Source of the DNA: a virus
Strand: one strand, 5' to 3'
Length of the DNA: 26,924 nucleotides
IMG/VR virus record: IMGVR_UViG_3300021368_001979
Coordinates: 1-26,924 of that record
Position 1 is the first letter of the stretch. Each line of letters begins with the position of its first letter. The notes beneath the pieces are model-generated. The model saw only the letters and a program-made list of their open reading frames with translations. It made no database searches and had not been told where the DNA came from. Shown here in pieces: positions 2,808-19,488 of this stretch. Position numbers and translations under genes: made by a program.

Positions 2808-3518
2808 ATGGCATGTTTGATTGCTAATCTTCCTTCGCAGGAAGTATGGGTTCGTAAAGAATACCTAACGGATCATCAAAGTGGTCATGGCGAGTTTGTA
2901 AAAGGCGTCTGGGTGTCAGTTAAGTCGATACCTGGGCGTGCTTTTTACTTTGAGACTTACTTACCAGAGTATGCGGCAATGTATGATAAGTTGCCGATTG
3001 CTGCCTTTGTAAGTGAACCAAAGACGCCAGAACCTGATATGAACCTTCCGAATCTACAGTTCTGGAATTGTATGGATTATGGGGTTGTATCAGTCGATAA
3101 GAAGTTTATTGGGTCAATGGACTTTGAGTGTTATACACGCGATCATGGCGCTCAGAAGGGCACGTATGTGTGTACAATCGATAACTATCATCATGACCCC
3201 GATTACGTTGACTGGGCGACCAGTGAGAACCCTGCAGAGCATAAGTCTCATAACCTGATTGAACTGGAGAATGGGCAATATGCACTCTATCCTAATAACA
3301 GACTACGGATTTTTGACAATAGTCTTACTCCTGTTGATCCTAAGATACCTGACTTTAAGGTATCTACTCAATATTATCAGGTAGAAAACGGATTTGACCG
3401 TCTTGGTATGGGTCGTGAAGACGAATACCACTGGAAGACTGCTAAAGAGCGTGAGGAAGAGATTGTAGCAGACGTTGATGATCAGTATCATCACCATTTT
3501 GACGGCAACAATAAATAG
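2808..3518 (+). CDS. Conserved cyanophage hypothetical protein, 236 residues
   Basis: The product is soluble and rich in Tyr, Trp, His and acidic residues, with no signal peptide or membrane segment. It opens with a WVRKEYL motif, has FYFETYLPEYAAMYDKLPI near residues 46-64, and a central FWNCMDYGVVSVDKKFI. It ends in a charged helix (TAKEREEEIV) followed by a DDQYHHHFDGNNK tail. I recall this as a conserved T4-like cyanophage protein of unknown function, and a role cannot be inferred. The start at 2808 is the first in-frame ATG. No good Shine-Dalgarno precedes it, and only a weak TATAGA-like -10 lies upstream. Its TAG stop is embedded in the late promoter of the structural module. Confidence 0.75.
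   Translation: MACLIANLPSQEVWVRKEYLTDHQSGHGEFVKGVWVSVKSIPGRAFYFETYLPEYAAMYDKLPIAAFVSEPKTPEPDMNLPNLQFWNCMDYGVVSVDKKFIGSMDFECYTRDHGAQKGTYVCTIDNYHHDPDYVDWATSENPAEHKSHNLIELENGQYALYPNNRLRIFDNSLTPVDPKIPDFKVSTQYYQVENGFDRLGMGREDEYHWKTAKEREEEIVADVDDQYHHHFDGNNK
3510..3517 (+). promoter_or_regulatory. T4-type late promoter AATAAATA
   Basis: AATAAATA at 3510-3517 fits the NATAAATA form of T4-like late promoters, which are read by host polymerase with the phage late sigma factor gp55. It overlaps the TAG stop of the preceding gene and stands about 58 nt before the ATG at 3575. It is the first late-type signal at the border of the baseplate module. Confidence 0.6.
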
Positions 3519-6041: not shown

Positions 6042-9000
6042 ATGATACAAACCGGGTTTGAAAGAAGGGTCAAGATTCAGCAGGTCATTGCTAATCAACT
6101 TCCAGAATTTCTGAGAGCTGAAAGTCCCAAATCTATTGACTTCTTCAAACAATACTACGTTTCGCAGGAATATCAGAGTGGTCCAACAGATCTTGTTGAG
6201 AATTTAGACCAATATCTGAAACTTGACAACCTTACACCAGAAGTTGTAAGTGGATATACTAGTTTGTCTGCTGGTATTTCTGCTACTGCTGATACTGTTG
6301 AAGTAGAATCTACCAAGGGTTTCCCTAATGAGTACGGTCTCTTCAAGATTAATGATGAAATTATAACATATACTGGCATTACCACCAACTCTTTTACGGG
6401 ATGTATTAGAGGTTTTAGTGGTATTACCTCTTATCGTTCTTCCCTAAATCCAGAAGAACTAGTTTTTGAAGATACCAATCAGGCATCTCATGGTGCTGGT
6501 ACTGTAGTTCAAAACCTTAGTTCTCTCTTCTTAAAAGAATTCTACAAGAAATTAAAATATTCTTTTGCTCCTGGTCTAGAAGATGTTGATTTTGTAGATA
6601 ATTTAGACGTTAATAACTTTATCAAAGAGATAAGAAGTCTCTACGAAGCAAAAGGAACAGAAGATTCTTTCAAAATTTTATTCAAAGTTCTATATGGTGT
6701 TGATCCAAAGGTAATTGATTTAGAAGATTACTTAATCAAACCATCTACAGCAACCTATACAAGAAGAGAAGAAGTTGTTGTTGAAAGGATTTCTGGAGAT
6801 CCAAATAAGTTAATTGGTCAAACTATTACAAAATCTAGTGATAGTGCTACTAATGCTGCAGTATCTGAAGTAGAAATCTTCACTCGTTCTGGTATTAGCA
6901 CCTACTACAAACTTAAATTATTTGTTGGATTTGATGATAGAGATCTTATTGAAGGAACTTTTGATGTTCAGGCATCTACAAAGGTCATTAATCCAGTTAG
7001 TGTTGGTGCATCTGTTATTACCGTAGACTCTACGATTGGTTTTGGACAAACTGGCACGGTTATTTCTGGAAGAAATACTATTGAATATACTGATAAGACT
7101 GTAAATCAGTTTCTTGGATGTACTGGTATTGGAACTGCTATCCCAACTGCTACTGAACTAAGAACTGATGAGTATTATATTGGATATGAAAATGGTGATA
7201 CCACAAAACCAGTTAAGATCCGTATTGGAGGAGTTCTTTCAGAATTCAATCAAATTGGAGATGTTCTGCTTTCTAGTGAAGGTCAGAAAATCTACGTTAA
7301 GAATATTGGTAAGAAAATAAAAAATCCCGAACTTAATAAGACTGATGAGCAAATATTTGCAAATAGTTGGATTTATAACACAAGTTGTAGATTTGAAGTA
7401 AAAAGCGTCTCTGGTGCTACATTCCAGTTGAAGAGCAATATTGATAAATCTAGTCTAAAGATTGGAGATACTGTAGATATTCTCAATGGTAGCACAGAAA
7501 CTGTAGAGCATAGCAATGCAACTGTTTCTATTGTTGATGTTACCAATAAGCAAATTACACTTGATAATCTTGCCGGATTTACTGAAGATCCTGCTATCAA
7601 CTATACAATCCGAAGAAAACTGAATACCGCTACCAGTAGCGGTGCTGCTCTGTTCTATGGCGATGATAACATTACCACTGATGTTCAGAACTTGTATGTT
7701 GATGACGATTTTGCCTATGTTGCATCTAACTCTTTACCATCCTATGATATTGTTGAAGACACTTTAAGTTCTACTCTGGCAAATGCTAGCGGAAGTTCTC
7801 TTCAAGACTTTGATAATTCTACTTTAAAATATAATATTATTTCTTTTAGTAGTGATGTTCCTTTCATAACTGGTGATGAAGTCTCCTATAAAGCAGGCGC
7901 AGACACCCTTGTAGGCGTCTCTGAGGGCACTTATTATGTGGAAGTTCTCGGTATCCCCAATCAGATTAAACTATACGCTTCTAGGTCATTAGTTGGAAGT
8001 GGCACTAATTTACAGTTCACTGCTCCCGATAACGACGGCACTCACAAATTTACCATTGAGAGTCAGAAGAGTGAAAAGATTTATCCTTCACAGTCTCTGA
8101 AAAAGTTCCCACTTGTAAGAAATATTGCTGATGGGAATGCAACTCCTACTATTCCAGGATCTACTGGGATGTTAGTTAATGGTGTTGAAATCATTAACTA
8201 TAAAACACCAGATAAGATTTACTATGGTCCTATTAAGAAAGCGAATTTGTTCAATGGTGGTACTGGATATGATGTAATCAATCCACCAACTATTGAGATT
8301 ACTGCTGCCGCTAGTGGATTTACAACTGCTTTAGTAAGACCTGTTGTTAAAGGTCAAGTAAATAATGTTCAGGTTGATCCACAAGATTTTGACCTGCTTG
8401 ATGTTACTTCTATCACTATTACTGGTGGTAATGGTTCTGGTGCTGTTTTAGAACCAATTGTAGAGACAAGATATCGTGAAATTGAGTTTGATGCTCGTTT
8501 AGATGTAGTAGGTGGTGGTCTTAACATCAATAGCGAGACTATTACTTTTACTACACAACATAATCTTAGAAATGGTGATCGTGTTGTTTATAGTAGAAAT
8601 GGAAATCCTGCTCTTGGTATAGGAACTTTTGGTGGTTCTAATGCACACCAAGATAGGGCACTTTCAAGCGGTTCAGTCTATTATGCTGAAGTTGTCAATA
8701 GCACTAGCATTAAAATCTTTGATTCCCAGGATGACTTTAACGCTGGAATCAATACTGTAGGATTTACTACATCATCTAGTGGTCTTCATAAGTTTAGGTT
8801 GTTTGATGGAAAGAAAACGTTAAGTTCCATTAAAGTGATTGACTCTGGTAGTGGATATGAAAACAGATTACTGAAGGTTAAACCTGTAAATATCTCCACT
8901 GTAGAAGATACTATTACATTTAAGAACCACGGATTCTCTGATGGTGATAAGATTGTCTATTCTAGTGATGGCGACTCCGTATTGAATCCTGCAGTCCAAT

Positions 9001-12000
9001 ATCAGGTTATTAAACTTGATGACGATACTTTCAAACTTGCTAACGCTGGTGTTGGTGGAACAATCACCACAAACTACATCAAAAAGAATTATGTAAGTCT
9101 CCATGCGTTCAACAGCTCTAGTGGTACTTTCCAAAACTTTGCATATCCTCCAATTACAATAACCGTAAATGCTGAGTTTGATGGTGTATCTGGAGTTATC
9201 ACAGCAACTCCTTCTATTAGAGGTGAGATTGTTGACCTTTATCTGTATGAAACTGGAACGGGATATGGTTCTACTATTCTAAACTTCCACAAGAAACCAG
9301 ATATTCTTGTTAAGACTGGTAAGAATGCTGAACTAAAACCAATTATATCTGAAGGTAGCGTAAGTTCCGTTCAAGTAACTAGTGGTGGTAGTGAGTATTC
9401 ATCTGCTCCAGATATAGAAGTTAGGGGAGATGGTGTTGGTGCTAAGGTGAGAGCGATCGTAAGTAATGGGAAAATAATTAATACTGTTGTATTGAATGGA
9501 GGTGTTGGATATACTCAGAACAATACTACTATCGCTGTTACTTCTGCAGGTGCTCGCGCTGTTCTTGGATTAGAAGTCAGAGATCTTACACTCAATGGTC
9601 ATGATAGATTTGGTGATGAGATTTTACTTGAATCTGGCGACAAACTCCAATATGGTATGGTTGGTTATTCAACTGCCATTGGTCTTAATAATTTTGACGA
9701 CGATGGTCAATCACATTCCCCAATCATTGGATGGGCATATGATGGAAACCCCATATATGGTGGTTATTCTTACACTGACCCCTCAGATATAGACTCTGAT
9801 ATTAAGATTCTTGATAGTGGGTATGAGTTATTATCTTCCGATGTTATTGATAGACCATCTGGATTTGCTGATGGTTTCTTTGTTGAAGACTATAAGTTCA
9901 CCGCTTCTGGTGATTTGGATGAGCATAATGGTAGATACTCTAAGACTCCAGAGTTTCCAAATGGTGTCTATGCCTATCATGCTGCCATCACTTCAGATGG
10001 TAAGAATAGTAAGTTCCCATTCTTTGTAGGTAATACTTACACTTCTATCCCTTGCAGACAAGATGTTGATCAAACATTCGATTTCAATTCTTCTAGTCTC
10101 AGAAGAAATACTCTGCCATATGTTGCAGGCGATAAGTATGCTAATAATGACTTTACATCAGAACCTAATGAGGTAATTGCACAATCTGCAGTTATTGATT
10201 CTATCACACAAGGTTCTGTTGATGGATTTAATATTAATGTTGCTGGTTCTGATTATAGAGTTGGTGAATTAGTTTCTTTTGATAATGATGAAACTAATGG
10301 TGGTGGTCTGAGTGCTTATGTAAGTAAAGTTACTGGTAAATCTATCGTTGATGTTGTAACAACTACTTTATCTTATGATAATACCATTTTAGTTTGGAAC
10401 GATAACAATGTATCTGTTACTGTAGACCCATCACATGAATATCTTGATAATGAACAAGTTGAGATATCTGGTCTGTCTACATTTGTTTCTGGACTGATTA
10501 AATCTCACATAATTGGTGTAACTTCTGAGAGAACTCGTCTTTCTATTGAAGCACCAGCAAACTCCACTGTTGGTTTTGTAACCGATATTTTCGTTAATCG
10601 AATTGTTGATTCAATCTCTGTAGGAAGCACTCTGCGCATCGGTACAGAGGTTCTTTCAGTATTAGGTACATTCCCTAACAATAAGGTTTTAAGGGTAATC
10701 AGAGGCACAGCAGGCACCGCACAGACTGCAACAAGTGAAGTGTTTGTATCTCCCAGATCTTTTACGCTTCCAGTAAGTGTACCATACTTTGAATCTTCTA
10801 TAAACGATAAGGTATTCTTCAATCCTCAACAGTCTGTTGGTATTGGAACAACTACAGGATTGTCGTTACTCAAGAAATATTTTATTGGTTCCCGAGATTA
10901 TGATGTCTCTGTTCCTATTCAGGGAATATACATTCCAGATCATCCATTCATCACTGGTCAGGAAGTTACATTTGAAAGATTGACTGGTGCGAATAATATT
11001 ACAGTGTCTGATTTGGCAACTGGTAGTGCTACATTCAATATACCAGCATCTGGAGATAGTCAAACCTTATTTGTAATTAACAAGGGTGAGAACATAATCG
11101 GTCTCTGCACACAAGTTGGTCTTACTACAAATACCAATGGTCTCTATTTCAGATCAGCTCCAACTAATGGTGATAGTTCTGATTTTAGATATTCTTTGAC
11201 TTCAAACAAAACTCAAGTAACTGCTAGAGCAGAACGTATTAAGGCAAGAGTTGCCGTCTCTACTGCACACGGTCTTAATAATGGAGATATTGTTGATCTA
11301 ACAGTCAATCCTAACCAATCAGTAGGTATTGGAACTTCTGTATCGGTATATCTTAAGTATAACTCTACTCATGACAAATTACTGATCAATCCTATTGGAT
11401 TTACTTCTGAGTCAGTTTCTACTACTACAGATACTATTACGATCACGAATCATGGATTTAAAACTGGCGATAAAGTCTTCTATGAATCTGATCTGAATAT
11501 AACTGGTCTTTCTGAAGGTTCATATTTTGTTTATAGACTTGATGATGATAATTTTAATCTTACGAATACGAAGTATGATGCAGTTTCTTTTCCTCCAACT
11601 GTTGTAAGTCTTGGTTCTACTGGTGGTGCTGCTCAAGAACTATCTTTAATCAATCCTAATCTTGATGTTATTAGAAATAATAATCTTGTATTTAATACTT
11701 CTGATACTTCATTAAGTGGATATAACTTTAACTTATACTATGATAAAGAATTCAAGAACCCACTTGTTTCTGTTGGAAGCTCAACTACATTCAGCACCGT
11801 TGGTTTAGGAACTGTTGGTGTAACATCAACTGCAACCTTTACTTTAAACTATGAGAAGAGTCTTCCTTCTAAGATTTACTATCAGATAGACAAAGGTAAT
11901 TACATTAGTACTGCCGATACTGAAGTAACTAATTACTCTGAAATATCTTTTTCTGATAGCGCATATACAGGACAATATTCTATTACTGGTGCCGGCGGAA

Positions 12001-15000
12001 CAGTTTTTACTGTTTCCTTAAAAGATAATCCAGAAACTCTTGAATATACTCAAAATAACACAAGCACTCTGAAGTATGAAACTTCATCTGAAAGAGCAGT
12101 GGGTGGTGTTGCAGATCTTGCAATTACTTTTGGTGGAGCAAACTATAAAAAACTTCCTAAGTTTGTAAGTATTGCTTCTACTGCAGGAATTAATGCAGAT
12201 ATTATTCCAACTTCCAATACTATCGGTAGAATTAATCAGGTCACAATCAAAGATACTGGATTTGATTTTTCGGCAGATAAAACTCTAAATCCAGAAGTTT
12301 ATATCTCTCCAAATGTCAATATTATTAATAGGAACACTATTAGTGATATTGAAGTTACAGATGGTGGCAGAAATTATACTTCTGCTCCAGATCTTGTTCT
12401 TGTTGATCCAAATACAGGTTCTGTGTATACAAATGGTAATCTTATTGCCAAAATGCAGGGTTCTTCAATTATTAGTGTGAATATATTGGAATCTCCAAAA
12501 GGAGTTTCTGATACTGTATCTAAAGTATATTCAGTTAATAATAGTAATGGCGTTGGTATTAGTAGTGTATTCAGTTCTGCTTCTGGTATTGTGACATGTG
12601 TTCTTAACACACCAATTACTACAGGATTTACTAGCGCACCATTTTCTCCTGGAGATTTTGTGTTCTCTGAAAATATTGGTCTAGCATCTTCTGAAGGAAC
12701 TGGATTTAACTCTGCAGATTACAAATATAATTTCTTTAGAGTTACTGCATATAGAAATACTAACCCTGCTGAGGTTGAGTTTGATCTTGATACAACTAAT
12801 GCTGGAATCGCTGTAACTGATGCTTCAAGCACATTTGGTTTACTTGTTAATAAGAAAAACTATCCAATATTCAATGTAATTCAAACACCATTAGATTTTA
12901 TTATTGGAGAACCTCTACTCATTAAATCTGGTGGCGATTATACAGAAATTGATTTGATTGTCACTGAAAATCTTAATGACTCAATCAAAGTTTATGGATC
13001 TTATGATCTTGTTGCTAATGATTGTATTGTTGGTCAAAATTCTGGAACAGTAGCAACTGTCAATACTATTACAGAAAATGAGGGTGTTTTTAAGATTGAT
13101 TATTCTTTGACTACAGAGAACGGTTGGTCTGATGATATTGGCAAACTCAATGAAGACTATCAGGTCACCCCAGATAATGATTACTATCAAAATCTTTCTT
13201 ACAGTATCAAGAGTCCTATTGAGTTTGAAGATTGGGTAAATCCTGTTAATAGAGTTATTCACTCTTCTGGTCTGAAGAACTTTGCAGATACTGGTATTAC
13301 TTCAACCGCTAAAGTTTCTACCGCTCAAACAGCATCTAGTTCTAGTGATGCTCTCCTCGATATTATTAATGTAAACGATTCTGGTGAAGTTATGAGAGTT
13401 GATACTATCAACTTCTTTGACTTTGGTATTGATGTAGATACTTCAAACGAAAAATCTAAATTTATCAAATTCCGAAATAAGAGACTTTCAGATTATATTG
13501 AGTGTAGAACTAACAGAGTTCTTACGATTGATAACTTTAATAATCTGTTCTCCAATCAAGAAAATGCAAACAGCACTTTATATAAGGATATTGATATCTT
13601 TAACCCCAATGATGGACTTAGTAGATATTTCCTTCAGATAATCAAACCCGATGGTACAGAAGTTCAAGCAACTGAAGTTATCATTATCAATTCTCCAAAT
13701 GATGACTTAATTACTGTTGAAAGAGCAAGTTCTCATAGTACAGATGATGATCTTGCAAGTATTCAAGCAATAACTGATAGTTTTGGTTCTTCTTCTCTCA
13801 GACTTACTCCAGCAGATCCATATAATAAAGATTTGGATGTTAAGTTTATCAAGAATAACTTCAATACAACTCTTGCCGGTATTGGTACACAATCTGTCGG
13901 TTTTGTAAATCTGATTGGTGGTAATGTTTCTGTTTCTACGGCATCAACAAGCACTGTTTATGCAAGCCCTGTTGGTGCAGTGGAGTCTATCTTTGCTACC
14001 GTTGAACTTACGGATACGATCACAAAGGATAAGACGGTTGTTGATATGTTCATTGATCATAATGGAACAGATACATTTAAGTCTGACTTCTTCTTTGATA
14101 ACAGTCCTAAGACTGGTTCTTCCGATAAATTTATTGGAACATTCACTAGCAATATTGATTCTGGTATTCTGAAGTTAGATTTTGAGAATACAGAATCTAA
14201 TCCTGTTTTAGTTCGCTCTAGAATTGTTGGATTTGGAACTACTGCTACCGGTATTGGTACTCATACCTTCAAAGCATCTGGTCAACCAGATGATTCTGTA
14301 AGAGAGGGTAGATTGGAATCATCTTTCTCCAAAATCCCAAATACTGGAATTTCTACAATTAGAACTTATGATCTTTCTGATGTAACTACTGTAAAATCTA
14401 CTGCTAAAGTTTCTTACGGAAATACTTCTGCTTTGCATCAAGTATTGTACAATCATGATCAAACGGATGCTTTCGCGATGCAGTATCCATTCCTTTCCAA
14501 TAATGATGTTATTGGTATTGGAACATTTGGTGCAGACATTGATGGTACTGAATTTAATCTTATATTCTATCCAGATGCAAATATTAATGAAGAAATCACA
14601 GTTCAATTGTATAGTGAACTAATACAAACCGAAAAAGATCTTAACAACGTACCTGCAGTATTGACCTATGGATCGATAAATGAGCAACTGAAGACATCGC
14701 AATTTGATGCTGTAAATGGAGACAGAACTAACATCTTTGACTTTGATGTTAAGCATAACGGTATTCCTATCTTTGAGAAGCAGTTTAATCCAGCAGACTC
14801 TACTGCTGTAGACCTCGCCACTGGTACATTCTCAATCTCAGATCACTTCTTCAGCAATCAAGAAAAACTAATCTATACTCCAAGATCCACATTTATTAAT
14901 AGTGGTTTTGGTTCTATGGTTATGACTGGTGGCGATCCACTTCCTCGCGAAGTATTTGCTATCAAGGTAAACAATGACCAGTTTAGAGTTTCTCTAACTG

Positions 15001-17912
15001 CTGGTGGTTCTGCTATTACATTTGAAGGTGATGGTGATGGAAATGGTCATACCTTTGAAATGGAGAAGAAGTTAGAGAAGTCTTTAATTACGATTGATGG
15101 TATCACCAGATCACCTCTGGCATTTAGTCCCGTCAATCATACGATTGATAATGAAGCAAATGTTTCCATAGCAGATACTTATATTGGTTTATCTGGCATT
15201 TCTTCCATTCTTCCAGGCGATGTTCTAAAAATTGATAATGAGTTTGCTAAAGTTGATGCTGTTGGTCTTGGAACAACTACTGCTGGACCTATCATTGGAG
15301 TTGGTTCTGTAAATCTTGTTAAACTTGAAAGGGGTTATGTAGGAACCTCAGCATCGACACATGATGATGGTGCTTCTGTCAGAGTATTCAGAGGTTCTTA
15401 CAATATGACTAGAAGTAAGATTCACTTTACTGAAGCACCTAGAGGTAATACTCAGGAATTGGTTGATAATAGCAATATCCCATACTTCAAGTCTACTTTC
15501 AATGGTAGAGTATATTTGAGAGATGATTACAGCACCAACCAAATCTATGATAGTATTACTCAGCAGTTTACTGGTATTGGTGCTACTTATAGATTGACTG
15601 TTGGTGGTATTAATACAACTGGTATTGAAACTGGTAGTGGTGTTCTGTTTATTAATAATATCTTCCAGACACCAACAACTGATAATAACACTGGTGGAAA
15701 TTATTCGTTTACTGAAAGTGCTGGAATTTCTAGTGTTGTATTCAGTGGAGTTGTAGATGATAGTGGCGATTTGGTTATCTCTGAAGAAGATGTGAACAAG
15801 AATCAACTACCAAGAGGTGGTATGATTGTTTCCCTTGGTTCTACTCAGGGTCTTGGTATTGCTCCTCTGGTTGGTGCCGCTGTAACTGCTGTAGTTGCTG
15901 GTGGTGTTATTACTGGAGTTGGAATTGGAACAACTGACATTGTTGGTTCTGGATATCGTGGAACAGTTTCCATTGGTGTTACAGATCCAAACCACTCTGG
16001 AAACGCAGCAACTATCACTGCTACTGTTGGTGCTGGTGGAACACTATCCTTTACTGTAAGTGATGGTGGTTCTGGTTATAGTGCCAACCCACAAATCAAT
16101 ATTCCTTCACCATCTTACGAAAATCTGCCTATCACAGGTGTTTCTCGTCTTGGTATTGGTGCTACAACTGATACTGGTAATGGTCTCCTTCTGAATGTTG
16201 AAGTTGGTGCTGCAATCACTGCTGTTGGTATTGGATCCACACTCTTTGAAGTCAAGAACTTCAAGATTACTAGAAATGGTTATGGTTTCCAAAAGGGCGA
16301 TAAATTCAAGGTGGTTGGTCTTGTAACTGATAGATATCTAACTTCTATGGTCAGTGAACCAGAATTTGAAGTTCTGGAAATCTTTAATGATAAATTTGCT
16401 GCCTGGCAATTTGGTGAACTTGACTATATTGACTCAGTTAATAGTCTGGTTGATGGTAGTCGCACAAGATTCCCACTCATCTATAAAGGTGAGTTAGTAA
16501 GTTTTGAAGTCAATTTGGATAATCCAGATTCTGCTGAAATAGATCTTGAAGCAGTTCTCCTTGTTTATGTAAATGGTGTTGTTCAGGAACCTAATGTTCA
16601 CTACAACTTTGTTGGTGGCACATCAATCGTATTTACAACTGCACCATCATCTAATGATAATATTGACATCTTCTTCTACAGAGGTACAAGAGGAACAGAT
16701 AGTGTATTTGTAGATACTGATCCTAGCATCAAAGTTGGAGATTTGATTAAACTGAAGAAGATTGAGCAGAGTGTTGAACAGGATGCTAGAACGGTTTATA
16801 ACCTAAATTCTTCCGACAAAGTAGAGACTAACATTTATACTGGATTTGGTATTGATGAAGTCAACTACAAACCAATTAGTTGGACTAAGCAGAAAGTTGA
16901 TAAGATTATTGGTGGCGAATTTACGTCAAAAGATAGAGATTCTATTGAAGCTCTGGTTTATCCAACTGCAAAAGTTATTGGTAATATTACGAATAGTGCA
17001 ACTGAAATCTTTGTTGATGACGCACAGTTCTTTAATTATGAAGAAAATGAATCTGCTATTGTGATTGATGATTTTGACGCAATACTAGTGAACACCTCAA
17101 CTGAACCAGTTTCTGCTGCTGTAACTGCTGTAGTTTCTGTTGCAGGAACTATTAGTTCCTTAGATATTACTGCAGGTGGATCTGGTTATTCGGGTTCTGC
17201 AACTATTAAGATTGCTTCTCCTAAAGAAGTTGGAGTTGGTGTTGGTACTACTGCTACTGCAACGGCAACTATTACAAATGGCACTATTTCTGCAGTAACA
17301 TTAACAAATGCAGGTTTAGGTTATACAACTTCTGCTCCTCCACAAGTTCTGGTTTCGGCACCGGCAATTTCTTATGAGAACTTGAGCGAGATTACCACTG
17401 TAATTGGTTATGCTGCAACTATTACTGGAATTTCAACGGTTGAAGGTATTGGAACTCCATTAGGACTTGAGTTCAGTTTTACCACGGCTAACTCTGCTGA
17501 TCTTGCAGTAGGATTCCCAATCGTGGTTAAGAATACTGGTGTTGGTCTCCCCGGCGATGGCATCATTTCTATTGATGGTTCTGATACAGAAACGGTAGGA
17601 ATTGGAACAAACTTCCTTAATAATATTTACATTGTTGCTGCTGTTCATATGCCAAGTGGAAATACTGGAATTGCTACATGCAATATTCTTTCTACAACCG
17701 ACCATGTTGGTTTAGGAACTACAGGAAGCGTCACTGATCCACGCGGTGAGTTGTCTTGGGGTAGACTTTCTGGATTCTCCAGAGCAAGTTCTCCAATTTC
17801 TATCGGTGTTACAGGTCTCACGGTTGATTCTGGATTGTCAACATTCCCAACAATTCAGAGACGTGGATTTGGATTAAGAGAGAATGGTTCACTCAGAAAG
17901 GACCTGGGATAA
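6042..17912 (+). CDS. 7: Giant gp7-type baseplate wedge protein with modular expansion
   Basis: The ORF encodes 3956 residues, about four times T4 gp7 (about 1030). The first roughly 240 residues carry the gp7 signature found near the C-terminal part of T4 gp7: a helical FFKQYYVSQEYQSGPTD block and GTEDSFKILFKVLYGVDPKV near 205-224. Most of the rest is beta-rich repeats. HG(F/L)xxGDxV modules ending in a 'LDDDxFxL' strand lie near residues 600-676, 832-921, 953-1027, 1456-1520, 1620-1721, 1733-1790, 1792-1867 and 2929-3013. GGxGY modules lie near 739, 933, 1068-1176, 2026-2168, 3292-3428 and 3705-3774. A YHYH-type domain spans about 1195-1335. A tail-fibre-like segment (VYVNGVVQEPNVHYNF) lies at about 3465-3554. 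No catalytic triad was seen. It probably keeps the wedge-core role of gp7 and adds surface-exposed modules. The start at 6042 follows the gp6 stop by 1 nt. Confidence 0.85.
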   Translation: MIQTGFERRVKIQQVIANQLPEFLRAESPKSIDFFKQYYVSQEYQSGPTDLVENLDQYLKLDNLTPEVVSGYTSLSAGISATADTVEVESTKGFPNEYGLFKINDEIITYTGITTNSFTGCIRGFSGITSYRSSLNPEELVFEDTNQASHGAGTVVQNLSSLFLKEFYKKLKYSFAPGLEDVDFVDNLDVNNFIKEIRSLYEAKGTEDSFKILFKVLYGVDPKVIDLEDYLIKPSTATYTRREEVVVERISGDPNKLIGQTITKSSDSATNAAVSEVEIFTRSGISTYYKLKLFVGFDDRDLIEGTFDVQASTKVINPVSVGASVITVDSTIGFGQTGTVISGRNTIEYTDKTVNQFLGCTGIGTAIPTATELRTDEYYIGYENGDTTKPVKIRIGGVLSEFNQIGDVLLSSEGQKIYVKNIGKKIKNPELNKTDEQIFANSWIYNTSCRFEVKSVSGATFQLKSNIDKSSLKIGDTVDILNGSTETVEHSNATVSIVDVTNKQITLDNLAGFTEDPAINYTIRRKLNTATSSGAALFYGDDNITTDVQNLYVDDDFAYVASNSLPSYDIVEDTLSSTLANASGSSLQDFDNSTLKYNIISFSSDVPFITGDEVSYKAGADTLVGVSEGTYYVEVLGIPNQIKLYASRSLVGSGTNLQFTAPDNDGTHKFTIESQKSEKIYPSQSLKKFPLVRNIADGNATPTIPGSTGMLVNGVEIINYKTPDKIYYGPIKKANLFNGGTGYDVINPPTIEITAAASGFTTALVRPVVKGQVNNVQVDPQDFDLLDVTSITITGGNGSGAVLEPIVETRYREIEFDARLDVVGGGLNINSETITFTTQHNLRNGDRVVYSRNGNPALGIGTFGGSNAHQDRALSSGSVYYAEVVNSTSIKIFDSQDDFNAGINTVGFTTSSSGLHKFRLFDGKKTLSSIKVIDSGSGYENRLLKVKPVNISTVEDTITFKNHGFSDGDKIVYSSDGDSVLNPAVQYQVIKLDDDTFKLANAGVGGTITTNYIKKNYVSLHAFNSSSGTFQNFAYPPITITVNAEFDGVSGVITATPSIRGEIVDLYLYETGTGYGSTILNFHKKPDILVKTGKNAELKPIISEGSVSSVQVTSGGSEYSSAPDIEVRGDGVGAKVRAIVSNGKIINTVVLNGGVGYTQNNTTIAVTSAGARAVLGLEVRDLTLNGHDRFGDEILLESGDKLQYGMVGYSTAIGLNNFDDDGQSHSPIIGWAYDGNPIYGGYSYTDPSDIDSDIKILDSGYELLSSDVIDRPSGFADGFFVEDYKFTASGDLDEHNGRYSKTPEFPNGVYAYHAAITSDGKNSKFPFFVGNTYTSIPCRQDVDQTFDFNSSSLRRNTLPYVAGDKYANNDFTSEPNEVIAQSAVIDSITQGSVDGFNINVAGSDYRVGELVSFDNDETNGGGLSAYVSKVTGKSIVDVVTTTLSYDNTILVWNDNNVSVTVDPSHEYLDNEQVEISGLSTFVSGLIKSHIIGVTSERTRLSIEAPANSTVGFVTDIFVNRIVDSISVGSTLRIGTEVLSVLGTFPNNKVLRVIRGTAGTAQTATSEVFVSPRSFTLPVSVPYFESSINDKVFFNPQQSVGIGTTTGLSLLKKYFIGSRDYDVSVPIQGIYIPDHPFITGQEVTFERLTGANNITVSDLATGSATFNIPASGDSQTLFVINKGENIIGLCTQVGLTTNTNGLYFRSAPTNGDSSDFRYSLTSNKTQVTARAERIKARVAVSTAHGLNNGDIVDLTVNPNQSVGIGTSVSVYLKYNSTHDKLLINPIGFTSESVSTTTDTITITNHGFKTGDKVFYESDLNITGLSEGSYFVYRLDDDNFNLTNTKYDAVSFPPTVVSLGSTGGAAQELSLINPNLDVIRNNNLVFNTSDTSLSGYNFNLYYDKEFKNPLVSVGSSTTFSTVGLGTVGVTSTATFTLNYEKSLPSKIYYQIDKGNYISTADTEVTNYSEISFSDSAYTGQYSITGAGGTVFTVSLKDNPETLEYTQNNTSTLKYETSSERAVGGVADLAITFGGANYKKLPKFVSIASTAGINADIIPTSNTIGRINQVTIKDTGFDFSADKTLNPEVYISPNVNIINRNTISDIEVTDGGRNYTSAPDLVLVDPNTGSVYTNGNLIAKMQGSSIISVNILESPKGVSDTVSKVYSVNNSNGVGISSVFSSASGIVTCVLNTPITTGFTSAPFSPGDFVFSENIGLASSEGTGFNSADYKYNFFRVTAYRNTNPAEVEFDLDTTNAGIAVTDASSTFGLLVNKKNYPIFNVIQTPLDFIIGEPLLIKSGGDYTEIDLIVTENLNDSIKVYGSYDLVANDCIVGQNSGTVATVNTITENEGVFKIDYSLTTENGWSDDIGKLNEDYQVTPDNDYYQNLSYSIKSPIEFEDWVNPVNRVIHSSGLKNFADTGITSTAKVSTAQTASSSSDALLDIINVNDSGEVMRVDTINFFDFGIDVDTSNEKSKFIKFRNKRLSDYIECRTNRVLTIDNFNNLFSNQENANSTLYKDIDIFNPNDGLSRYFLQIIKPDGTEVQATEVIIINSPNDDLITVERASSHSTDDDLASIQAITDSFGSSSLRLTPADPYNKDLDVKFIKNNFNTTLAGIGTQSVGFVNLIGGNVSVSTASTSTVYASPVGAVESIFATVELTDTITKDKTVVDMFIDHNGTDTFKSDFFFDNSPKTGSSDKFIGTFTSNIDSGILKLDFENTESNPVLVRSRIVGFGTTATGIGTHTFKASGQPDDSVREGRLESSFSKIPNTGISTIRTYDLSDVTTVKSTAKVSYGNTSALHQVLYNHDQTDAFAMQYPFLSNNDVIGIGTFGADIDGTEFNLIFYPDANINEEITVQLYSELIQTEKDLNNVPAVLTYGSINEQLKTSQFDAVNGDRTNIFDFDVKHNGIPIFEKQFNPADSTAVDLATGTFSISDHFFSNQEKLIYTPRSTFINSGFGSMVMTGGDPLPREVFAIKVNNDQFRVSLTAGGSAITFEGDGDGNGHTFEMEKKLEKSLITIDGITRSPLAFSPVNHTIDNEANVSIADTYIGLSGISSILPGDVLKIDNEFAKVDAVGLGTTTAGPIIGVGSVNLVKLERGYVGTSASTHDDGASVRVFRGSYNMTRSKIHFTEAPRGNTQELVDNSNIPYFKSTFNGRVYLRDDYSTNQIYDSITQQFTGIGATYRLTVGGINTTGIETGSGVLFINNIFQTPTTDNNTGGNYSFTESAGISSVVFSGVVDDSGDLVISEEDVNKNQLPRGGMIVSLGSTQGLGIAPLVGAAVTAVVAGGVITGVGIGTTDIVGSGYRGTVSIGVTDPNHSGNAATITATVGAGGTLSFTVSDGGSGYSANPQINIPSPSYENLPITGVSRLGIGATTDTGNGLLLNVEVGAAITAVGIGSTLFEVKNFKITRNGYGFQKGDKFKVVGLVTDRYLTSMVSEPEFEVLEIFNDKFAAWQFGELDYIDSVNSLVDGSRTRFPLIYKGELVSFEVNLDNPDSAEIDLEAVLLVYVNGVVQEPNVHYNFVGGTSIVFTTAPSSNDNIDIFFYRGTRGTDSVFVDTDPSIKVGDLIKLKKIEQSVEQDARTVYNLNSSDKVETNIYTGFGIDEVNYKPISWTKQKVDKIIGGEFTSKDRDSIEALVYPTAKVIGNITNSATEIFVDDAQFFNYEENESAIVIDDFDAILVNTSTEPVSAAVTAVVSVAGTISSLDITAGGSGYSGSATIKIASPKEVGVGVGTTATATATITNGTISAVTLTNAGLGYTTSAPPQVLVSAPAISYENLSEITTVIGYAATITGISTVEGIGTPLGLEFSFTTANSADLAVGFPIVVKNTGVGLPGDGIISIDGSDTETVGIGTNFLNNIYIVAAVHMPSGNTGIATCNILSTTDHVGLGTTGSVTDPRGELSWGRLSGFSRASSPISIGVTGLTVDSGLSTFPTIQRRGFGLRENGSLRKDLG
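7839..11640 (+). repeat. Array of HG(F/L)xxGDxV beta modules in the gp7-type protein
   Basis: At least seven degenerate protein modules recur here. Each starts with a strand such as ITFKNHGF, ITFTTQHNL, ITITNHGF or VAVSTAHGL, then a GDxV turn and an aromatic strand, and closes with a 'Y.V..LDDD.F.L' type strand. The pattern resembles modules in phage tail proteins that are often matched by the E1 FCCH-domain profile. They are interrupted by GGxGY modules and a YHYH-type domain. The repeats are conserved as protein, not as DNA. Confidence 0.6.
9625..10041 (+). other. YHYH-type domain embedded in the gp7-type protein
   Basis: Residues about 1195-1335 of the giant protein read SHSPIIGWAYDGNPIYGGY, later a DEHNGRYSKTPEFPNGVYAYH motif and FPFFVGNTY. 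This order (HSPIIGWAxDGxPIYG, xxNGR, TPEYPxGxYAYH, FPYxxG) is the signature of the YHYH family, otherwise seen in secreted bacterial and algal proteins. Function of the family is poorly defined; metal or glycan contact through the His/Tyr cluster is a reasonable guess. The motif His is present (YAYH), so the site looks intact. Confidence 0.75.
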
Positions 17913-17940: not shown

Positions 17941-19488
17941 ATGGCTGCAATTGTAACAGATCAGTTTAGAATATTAAACGCGGGAAACTTTGTAGATTCC
18001 GTCACTAGTACTTCAAACTCTTACTATGTTTTTGTTGGTCTATCCAATCCTTCAGTAGTTGGATATGGTAGAACAACAGATTGGGATACGGATACTCCAG
18101 CTCCCACTGACAACTTTGATTATATGAGTTTTATCGGTGATAATATGTCTTTTGGTAAGAAGGTTTCTTCTGCCAATATTAGACGACTTGTAAGAAGAGT
18201 TGATTGGACTAGAGGAACAAAATATGAGATGTATCGTCAAGATTATAGTTTGGAGAATTTAACTCCTACTACAAAATCTGCGCGTCTTTACGATGCAAAT
18301 TACTATGTGATGAATAGTGAATTTAAGGTTTATATTTGTATTGAGAATGGTTCTTCTGGAATCAATACAACAGGAAATGCTTCCCTTGACGAACCAACAT
18401 TTACTGACTTAGAACCATCAAAGGCAGGTGTTAGTGGTGATGGATATGTTTGGAAGTATCTGTTTACGGTTTCTCCTAGCGATATAATCAAGTTTGACTC
18501 AACTGAGTATGTTTCATTACCATCTGACTGGGCAACATCAACTGACGCTCAGGTAGTTGCCGTTAGAGATAATGGAGATTCTAGTGTTAATGAAAATCAA
18601 ATAAAAACGATTTACATTCAGAATCAAGGATTGGGATATTCTCAAGGTTCTCATGAATGTAATATTTTAGGTGATGGTACAGGTGCTAAAGCTATCGTTG
18701 AGGTAGACGTAAACGGTAGAATTACTGATACTGTTATTTCTGCTGGTGGTAAGGATTATTCTTACGGTATTGTTGATCTTGGTTCAATCAATGGTAGTTC
18801 TACAACCAAAGCAAACCTTATTCCTATCATCCCACCTTCAAAGGGTCATGGGTATGATATTTACAAAGAACTTGGTGCTGATAAAGTTCTTGTTTATGCA
18901 AGATTTGATGATTCTAACAACGATTTCCCAACCGATGCAACTTTTGCCCAGATTGGTATCGTAAAGAATCCAACTTCCTTCGGTTCTACTACAGTATTTG
19001 CCGAAAATCAATATTCTTCTTTGGGTGCTCTGAAGTTTACAACCACTAGCGGCACTGTTGCTGTTGGAGACAAAATTACTCAAACTGTAGATGCTGGAAA
19101 AGCAGTTGGATATGTTGCTTCATATGATTCTGAAACTAAGGTTCTTAAGTATTTCCAAGACAGGAATGCTTTCTTAAATCAGACAACTTTTGATAATACT
19201 GACTATGTTGGAGTTTCAACCAATGGTCAATTGTATGAATTTGCTTCAAATGCAAATGCAGTTACATCATCTGGAAATTTCTCAGGTTCTATTGATACCG
19301 GATTTACTGGTGTTTCTACAAACCCAACTGGATCAAAAATAATCTCCTTCGGTGTTCAAATAACAAACGGCATCGGCAATCCTGAGATAAATAAAAAGTC
19401 AGGAGATATTGTCTATATCGACAACCGTCCAGCAATCTCCAGAAATTCTAGACAAAAAGAAGACGTTAAAATCATCCTGGAATTCTAA
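17941..19488 (+). CDS. 8: Baseplate wedge protein gp8
   Basis: The product is 515 residues, against 334 for T4 gp8. The N-terminus (AIVTDQFRILNAGNFVDS), the DGYVWKYLFTV motif at 167-177, the QIGIVKNP strand at 337-344 and the C-terminus (DIVYIDNRPAI at 489-499, closing with KIILEF) align by eye with T4 gp8 landmarks. gp8 is a dimer that binds the outer part of the gp6/gp7 wedge. The extra length lies mainly in two blocks: a GGxGY-type insertion at about 222-306, and a second block at about 350-480 with the phrase TSGTVAVGDKI. It has its own late promoter, and the next gene begins 3 nt after its stop. Confidence 0.93.
   Translation: MAAIVTDQFRILNAGNFVDSVTSTSNSYYVFVGLSNPSVVGYGRTTDWDTDTPAPTDNFDYMSFIGDNMSFGKKVSSANIRRLVRRVDWTRGTKYEMYRQDYSLENLTPTTKSARLYDANYYVMNSEFKVYICIENGSSGINTTGNASLDEPTFTDLEPSKAGVSGDGYVWKYLFTVSPSDIIKFDSTEYVSLPSDWATSTDAQVVAVRDNGDSSVNENQIKTIYIQNQGLGYSQGSHECNILGDGTGAKAIVEVDVNGRITDTVISAGGKDYSYGIVDLGSINGSSTTKANLIPIIPPSKGHGYDIYKELGADKVLVYARFDDSNNDFPTDATFAQIGIVKNPTSFGSTTVFAENQYSSLGALKFTTTSGTVAVGDKITQTVDAGKAVGYVASYDSETKVLKYFQDRNAFLNQTTFDNTDYVGVSTNGQLYEFASNANAVTSSGNFSGSIDTGFTGVSTNPTGSKIISFGVQITNGIGNPEINKKSGDIVYIDNRPAISRNSRQKEDVKIILEF
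19385..19392 (+). promoter_or_regulatory. Weak late-promoter candidate GATAAATA inside gene 8
   Basis: GATAAATA is 99 nt before the ATG of the DUF4815 gene, mirroring the copy near the end of gene 6. It is coding sequence (Glu-Ile-Asn-Lys), and chance occurrence cannot be excluded. Confidence 0.25.

Follow-up and report, generated by a model that had tools for sequence, protein, structure and literature searches.

A YHYH-family domain in the gp7-type baseplate wedge protein of T4-like cyanophages appears to be split by inserts and to lack the family's histidine triad

The window, that is, the whole stretch of DNA analysed in this study, is a 26.9 kb IMG/VR virus record (IMGVR_UViG_3300021368_001979), and the element in question is a YHYH-family domain (Pfam PF14240) in its 3956-aa open reading frame (ORF). 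The ORF matched the baseplate wedge subunit family phrog_2885 with 3741.7 bits. The gene order of the window is gp25-gp6-(3956-aa ORF)-gp8, which matches that of S-RSM4, and the gp25-gp6-gp7 part is also found in P-SSM2 and P-HM2. A gp7 annotated as "baseplate wedge initiator" lies at the equivalent position in P-SSM2, P-HM2, S-B05, and Bellamy. The gp25-gp6-gp7-gp8 order and the wedge family profile identify the ORF as a T4-type gp7, and the earlier note, made from the letters of the window, was right to place the domain in a phage baseplate protein. A PDB sequence search returned no solved gp7 structure as a match to the ORF (E 0.1). The pieces of the domain and the inserts between them are listed in Table 1.

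Table 1. Coordinates in the window of gp7 and of the YHYH pieces, inserts, and motifs within it
Feature	Position	Strand	Evidence
Baseplate wedge protein at the gp7 position (3956 aa), containing the YHYH domain	6042..17912	+	ORF; phrog_2885; gene order
YHYH piece N1, residues 540-572 (DVQNLYVDDDFAYVASNSLPSYDI)	7659..7757	+	cellular N-half hidden Markov model (HMM), 6.1 bits alone; hhalign
Insert 1 inside the N half, ~110 residues	7758..8087	+	in the window's clade, not in S-CAM8-type gp7
YHYH piece N2, residues ~683-730 (includes KKFPLVRNIADGNATPTIPGSTGMLVNGVEIINYKT)	8088..8231	+	HMM 9.6 bits; hhalign
Insert 2, ~435 residues separating the N and C halves, with GxGY beta-repeats	8232..9536	+	sequence
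YHYH middle part, residues 1166-1218	9537..9695	+	hhalign; residue table
YHYH C half, residues 1219-1332 (HSPIIGWAYDGNPIYG, LDEHNGR, TPEFPNGVYAYH, FPFFVG)	9696..10037	+	PF14240 E 3.3e-25; hhalign vs cells E 3e-43
Motif HSPIIGWAYDGNPIYG, residues 1225-1240	9714-9761	+	within ORF 6042-17912
Motif NGR, residues 1296-1298	9927-9935	+	within ORF 6042-17912
Motif TPEFPNGVYAYH, residues 1302-1313	9945-9980	+	within ORF 6042-17912
Motif FPFFVG, residues 1325-1330	10014-10031	+	within ORF 6042-17912

The profile search showed that PF14240 matches residues 1220-1317 of gp7 with 89.6 bits (E 3.3e-25), against a curated cut-off of 25 bits; the segment taken alone scored 96.8 bits. With such values the match is not due to chance, and the family membership proposed in the earlier note is supported. 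The match covers only positions 88-183 of the 193 in the profile, whereas a cellular member covers 1-184. The note had reported the full order of the family motifs. Its four motifs are all present (residues 1225-1330), but they belong to this C-terminal part, and the name-giving histidines are missing. We take the segment to be the C-terminal half of a YHYH domain that forms part of gp7-type wedge proteins in T4-like cyanophages. Of the interval proposed earlier, 9625-10041, position 9625 falls inside a codon of the ORF, and the N-terminal pieces at ~7659-7757 and ~8088-8231 lie outside it.

PF14240 has cellular members in Bacteroidota, Planctomycetota, Deinococcus, and Alphaproteobacteria. 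The cellular relatives used here were mostly Bacteroidota; their main sample was collected with a query of phage origin, which skews it towards the closest relatives. In the cellular members the domain is uninterrupted and consists of an N half, the name-giving GH(P)...Y-H-x-H motif (GHP...YHHH or YHYH), and then the HSP..DG.PIYG and LD..NGR part. The C half of gp7 is 39% identical to them over 120 columns in the profile comparison, and the motif order HSP..DG.PIYG, LD..NGR, TP..P.G.Y.Y is shared; DG.PIYG, LD..NGR, and TP..P.G.Y.Y are all kept in the gp7 of the window. The motif TPEFPNGVYAYH is a later one that reads YAYF in cells, not the name-giving motif.

As judged from profile comparison, the N-terminal half of the domain also sits in gp7, where inserts interrupt it. 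Using hhalign, N1 matched the cells with E 1.7e-4 and the N halves of other cyanophage gp7 proteins with E 5e-9; the values for N2 were 1.2e-6 and 9.3e-15. The N half of the other gp7 proteins was in turn linked to the cells with E 5.5e-17. In the gp7 of the window, the N half was recovered only with the cellular profile and this bridging between profiles, and in two pieces. In the gp7 of S-CAM8, ACG-2014d, and P-HM2, the cellular N-half profile found one uninterrupted piece (independent E-values of 6e-19 to 3e-16) ~290-370 residues upstream of the C half, and N1 and N2 together correspond to a single contiguous match in S-CAM8 gp7 (1037-1114) and others. In the window's clade this profile hit two pieces, residues 540-570 and 688-730. 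For the middle and C parts, the window's clade matched other gp7 proteins with E 8e-65, and these matched the cells with E 2.4e-53. In the middle part, YGMVGYSTAIG occupies the place of the cellular YHxHxxPxxL and has no histidines. Among 90 gp7 relatives covering the region, the N half (N2 or the whole) was found in 83 and both pieces in 74. P-SSM2 gp7 has the same gene order, a similar domain position, and 48% identity over the segment, but its N pieces are barely detectable with the cellular profile.

The resemblance of N1 and N2 could be spurious, in which case gp7 would have captured only a C-half fragment. The single-sequence scores of both pieces against cells are low and Pfam detected neither in the window gp7, which favours this explanation. 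The bridging through profiles in the right order and the uninterrupted N half of S-CAM8-type gp7 argue against it, and we consider it very improbable. The N2 score (9.6 bits) also tops all 300 shuffles, whose maximum is 7.3. A gp7 with the C half only had been entertained as a candidate and was dropped once the N half turned up in S-CAM8-type gp7. In the gp7-position protein of S-BM3 (L251, 1-10551), two separate sets of YHYH-like matches were seen, at ORF residues 379-600 and 1981-2361.

The residues of the joint alignment are numbered after a Planctomycetota member. H142, H150, and H152 are invariant in 35/35 cellular rows and in 11/11 stand-alone phage YHYH proteins. None of the 38 rows in the window's clade has this triad; the window itself shows a gap, G, and V. 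The triad is also missing from nearly all of the 83 rows that come from other long ORFs. Of these 83 rows, ~10 are other long proteins and not gp7; the three long-ORF rows with the triad motif (L172, L193, L242) are such proteins. D178, D242, D253, N256, G257, and R258 are retained in ~99-100% of every class. A small sample of the wider family (Deinococcus, Bradyrhizobium, Rhodobacterales) has precisely this triad as its invariant histidines, and H169 is not conserved there. Of the four histidines that never vary among the close cellular members, gp7 retains only H169. These alignments show the triad to be absent from gp7 while the Gly/Pro/Tyr/Asp framework (DG.PIYG, LD..NGR, TP..P.G.Y.Y) stays.

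The earlier note had suggested that the domain binds metal or a surface ligand during adsorption. Metal binding by gp7 is unsupported because the three family-wide histidines are lost. The last H of YAYH, which had been counted among the motif histidines, was rejected as a family ligand: every cellular and every clade-B homologue has F in its place, and 24 of the 38 close relatives have F or Y. The C-terminal motifs stay nearly invariant.

The idea that the family was unexplored in phages is out of date. YHYH domains fused to tail or baseplate proteins were reported in jumbo phages in 2021, with the prediction of a Zn-dependent hydrolase whose site is made of a histidine triad and an aspartate (PMC7824862). 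The fusion described there is of the same kind as that in gp7. Carried over to gp7, this prediction would make the domain a metal-dependent envelope hydrolase with alternative ligands among the His and Asp of the C half, and H169 and the acidic D178, D242, and D253 are indeed kept. However, the triad, which comprises the only invariant histidines of the wider family, is lost, and H169 is replaced in one relative (L077) as well as being variable in the wider family. No matter which three histidines make up the published Zn site, gp7 can contribute no more than one of the four that are invariant among closer members. We consider a hydrolase in gp7 improbable. The excerpt of PMC7824862 does not mention a split of the domain, and one diatom census merely lists the family. 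In the literature searched for YHYH and PF14240, the domain split and the triad loss appear undescribed. The YHYH match itself is real, ordinary, located in a common phage protein, and known in outline.

Relatives of the segment were found in 463 of 50,697 phage records, nearly all of them Synechococcus or Prochlorococcus phages by record name. In the first eight regions examined, the match fell within the ORF that occupies the gp7 position. The domain is thus standard in cyanomyovirus gp7 and not specific to the window. Contigs filed as Euryarchaeota, Planctomycetaceae, and Woesearchaeota metagenome-assembled genomes (L090, L091, and L092) also carry a cyanophage-type gp7; they are probably misbinned phage DNA.

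The mean identity among relatives was 0.61 for N1, 0.65 for N2, and 0.67 for the C half, compared with 0.48 for insert 1, the least conserved of all segments, and 0.57 for insert 2. This would be expected if N1, N2, and the C half packed as one core. The same values bear on the receptor-binding or host-recognition reading of phage YHYH published in 2020 (PMC7029224). In gp7, such a receptor- or glycan-binding module would touch the host envelope with its C-half surface (DG.PIYG, NGR, TP..P.G.Y.Y). The cellular relatives are secreted-type proteins and one has a Pfam-recognised secretion sorting domain, which fits this role. The gp7 domain is not a secreted protein with sorting signals of its own; it starts near residue 540 within a baseplate ORF. 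Its pieces show higher conservation than most of the gp7 sequence around them, unlike a variable receptor-binding tip, and the residues retained are the same as in non-phage members, which points to maintenance of the fold. We hold a receptor or glycan module to be unlikely.

ACG-2014d and S-WAM1 have a separate YHYH gene directly downstream of gp7, between gp7 and gp9. The products (AIX26151 and YP_009325075) belong to phrog_2576 and phrog_25852. Like gp7, these proteins place a YHYH domain in the virion-gene cluster, but they have their own gene, ~534-587 residues, an uninterrupted domain, and an intact triad. A tree was built by a quick method from 117 columns of the C half; it does not resolve many of the forks, the root, or the direction of transfer. 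In it, the stand-alone proteins branch apart from the gp7 and cellular sequences (Shimodaira–Hasegawa-like approximate likelihood ratio 96), and the window's gp7 clade forms one group (support 98). Stand-alone cyanophage genes of this kind, with an intact YHYH motif immediately after gp7 (L250 8899-10662 and L252 5527-7131), are annotated as hypothetical or virion structural protein.

We consider it probable that the gp7 domain is a split YHYH fold that has lost the histidine triad, and with it the predicted metal site of the family, and that serves the wedge as a structural element. The N1, N2, middle, and C pieces would fold together as a single YHYH core, with the inserts extending from it as arms. 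Such a core would no longer bind metal through the family's site and may have a structural role in the wedge. If these phages do use the metal site, we would expect it in the intact, separately encoded YHYH protein found just downstream of gp7 in some relatives. On the sequence evidence, a retired structural fold is more likely for gp7 than a metal-binding device.

Several points weigh against this interpretation. Taken singly, N1 and N2 score low against the cellular profile (6.1 and 9.6 bits, with shuffles up to 7.3), and their case depends on profile bridging and order. The AlphaFold models had a mean predicted local distance difference test score of 60.6 for the gp7 segment (38 rows) and 62.6 for a cellular member (36 rows). 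A Foldseek search of both low-confidence models against the PDB gave no match (best E 2 to 4), and PDB sequence searches found no relative. Since the models are of low confidence and no PDB fold matched, the association of the pieces is one that we infer. The structural role is argued indirectly, from triad loss and conservation. The conserved Asp, Asn, Arg, and His of the C half could also form a different active or binding site.

Further observations concern the repeats and other genes. GxGY beta-repeats recur in gp7 (8232-9536 and 16065-17400) and, through a phrog_460 match, in gp8 (17941-19488); the S-CAM8 counterpart of insert 2 is a tandem run of GGxGY repeats. They appear to form a repeat module that recurs among cyanophage virion proteins. 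The best PHROG match of window positions 2808-3518 is phrog_3704, which carries the label ferredoxin, and a "ferredoxin" occupies a comparable place in Bellamy. The product (236 aa) is not rich in cysteine and matched no Pfam family, so the label looks doubtful. Upstream of the baseplate genes, 1695-2456 matched phrog_1574 and, weakly, a glycosyltransferase. On two Rhodobacterales plasmids (L254, L258), the YHYH gene comes after a PEBP-family gene.

We speculate, while thinking it rather doubtful, that T4-like cyanophages captured a fold of the secreted metalloprotein type more than once, as the triad-less split core of gp7 and as its intact neighbour. The virion may then hold dead and live forms, the live one acting on the envelope and the dead one serving as a wedge or docking element. 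In this protein, widespread among marine phages, Pfam detects just half of the YHYH domain. The histidine site on which the published prediction of phage YHYH function depends is missing from the common gp7 form. Separating the split, triad-less gp7 from the intact stand-alone forms tells which protein to assay, and the triad-less and intact relatives offer a natural pair for testing the role of the YHYH site.
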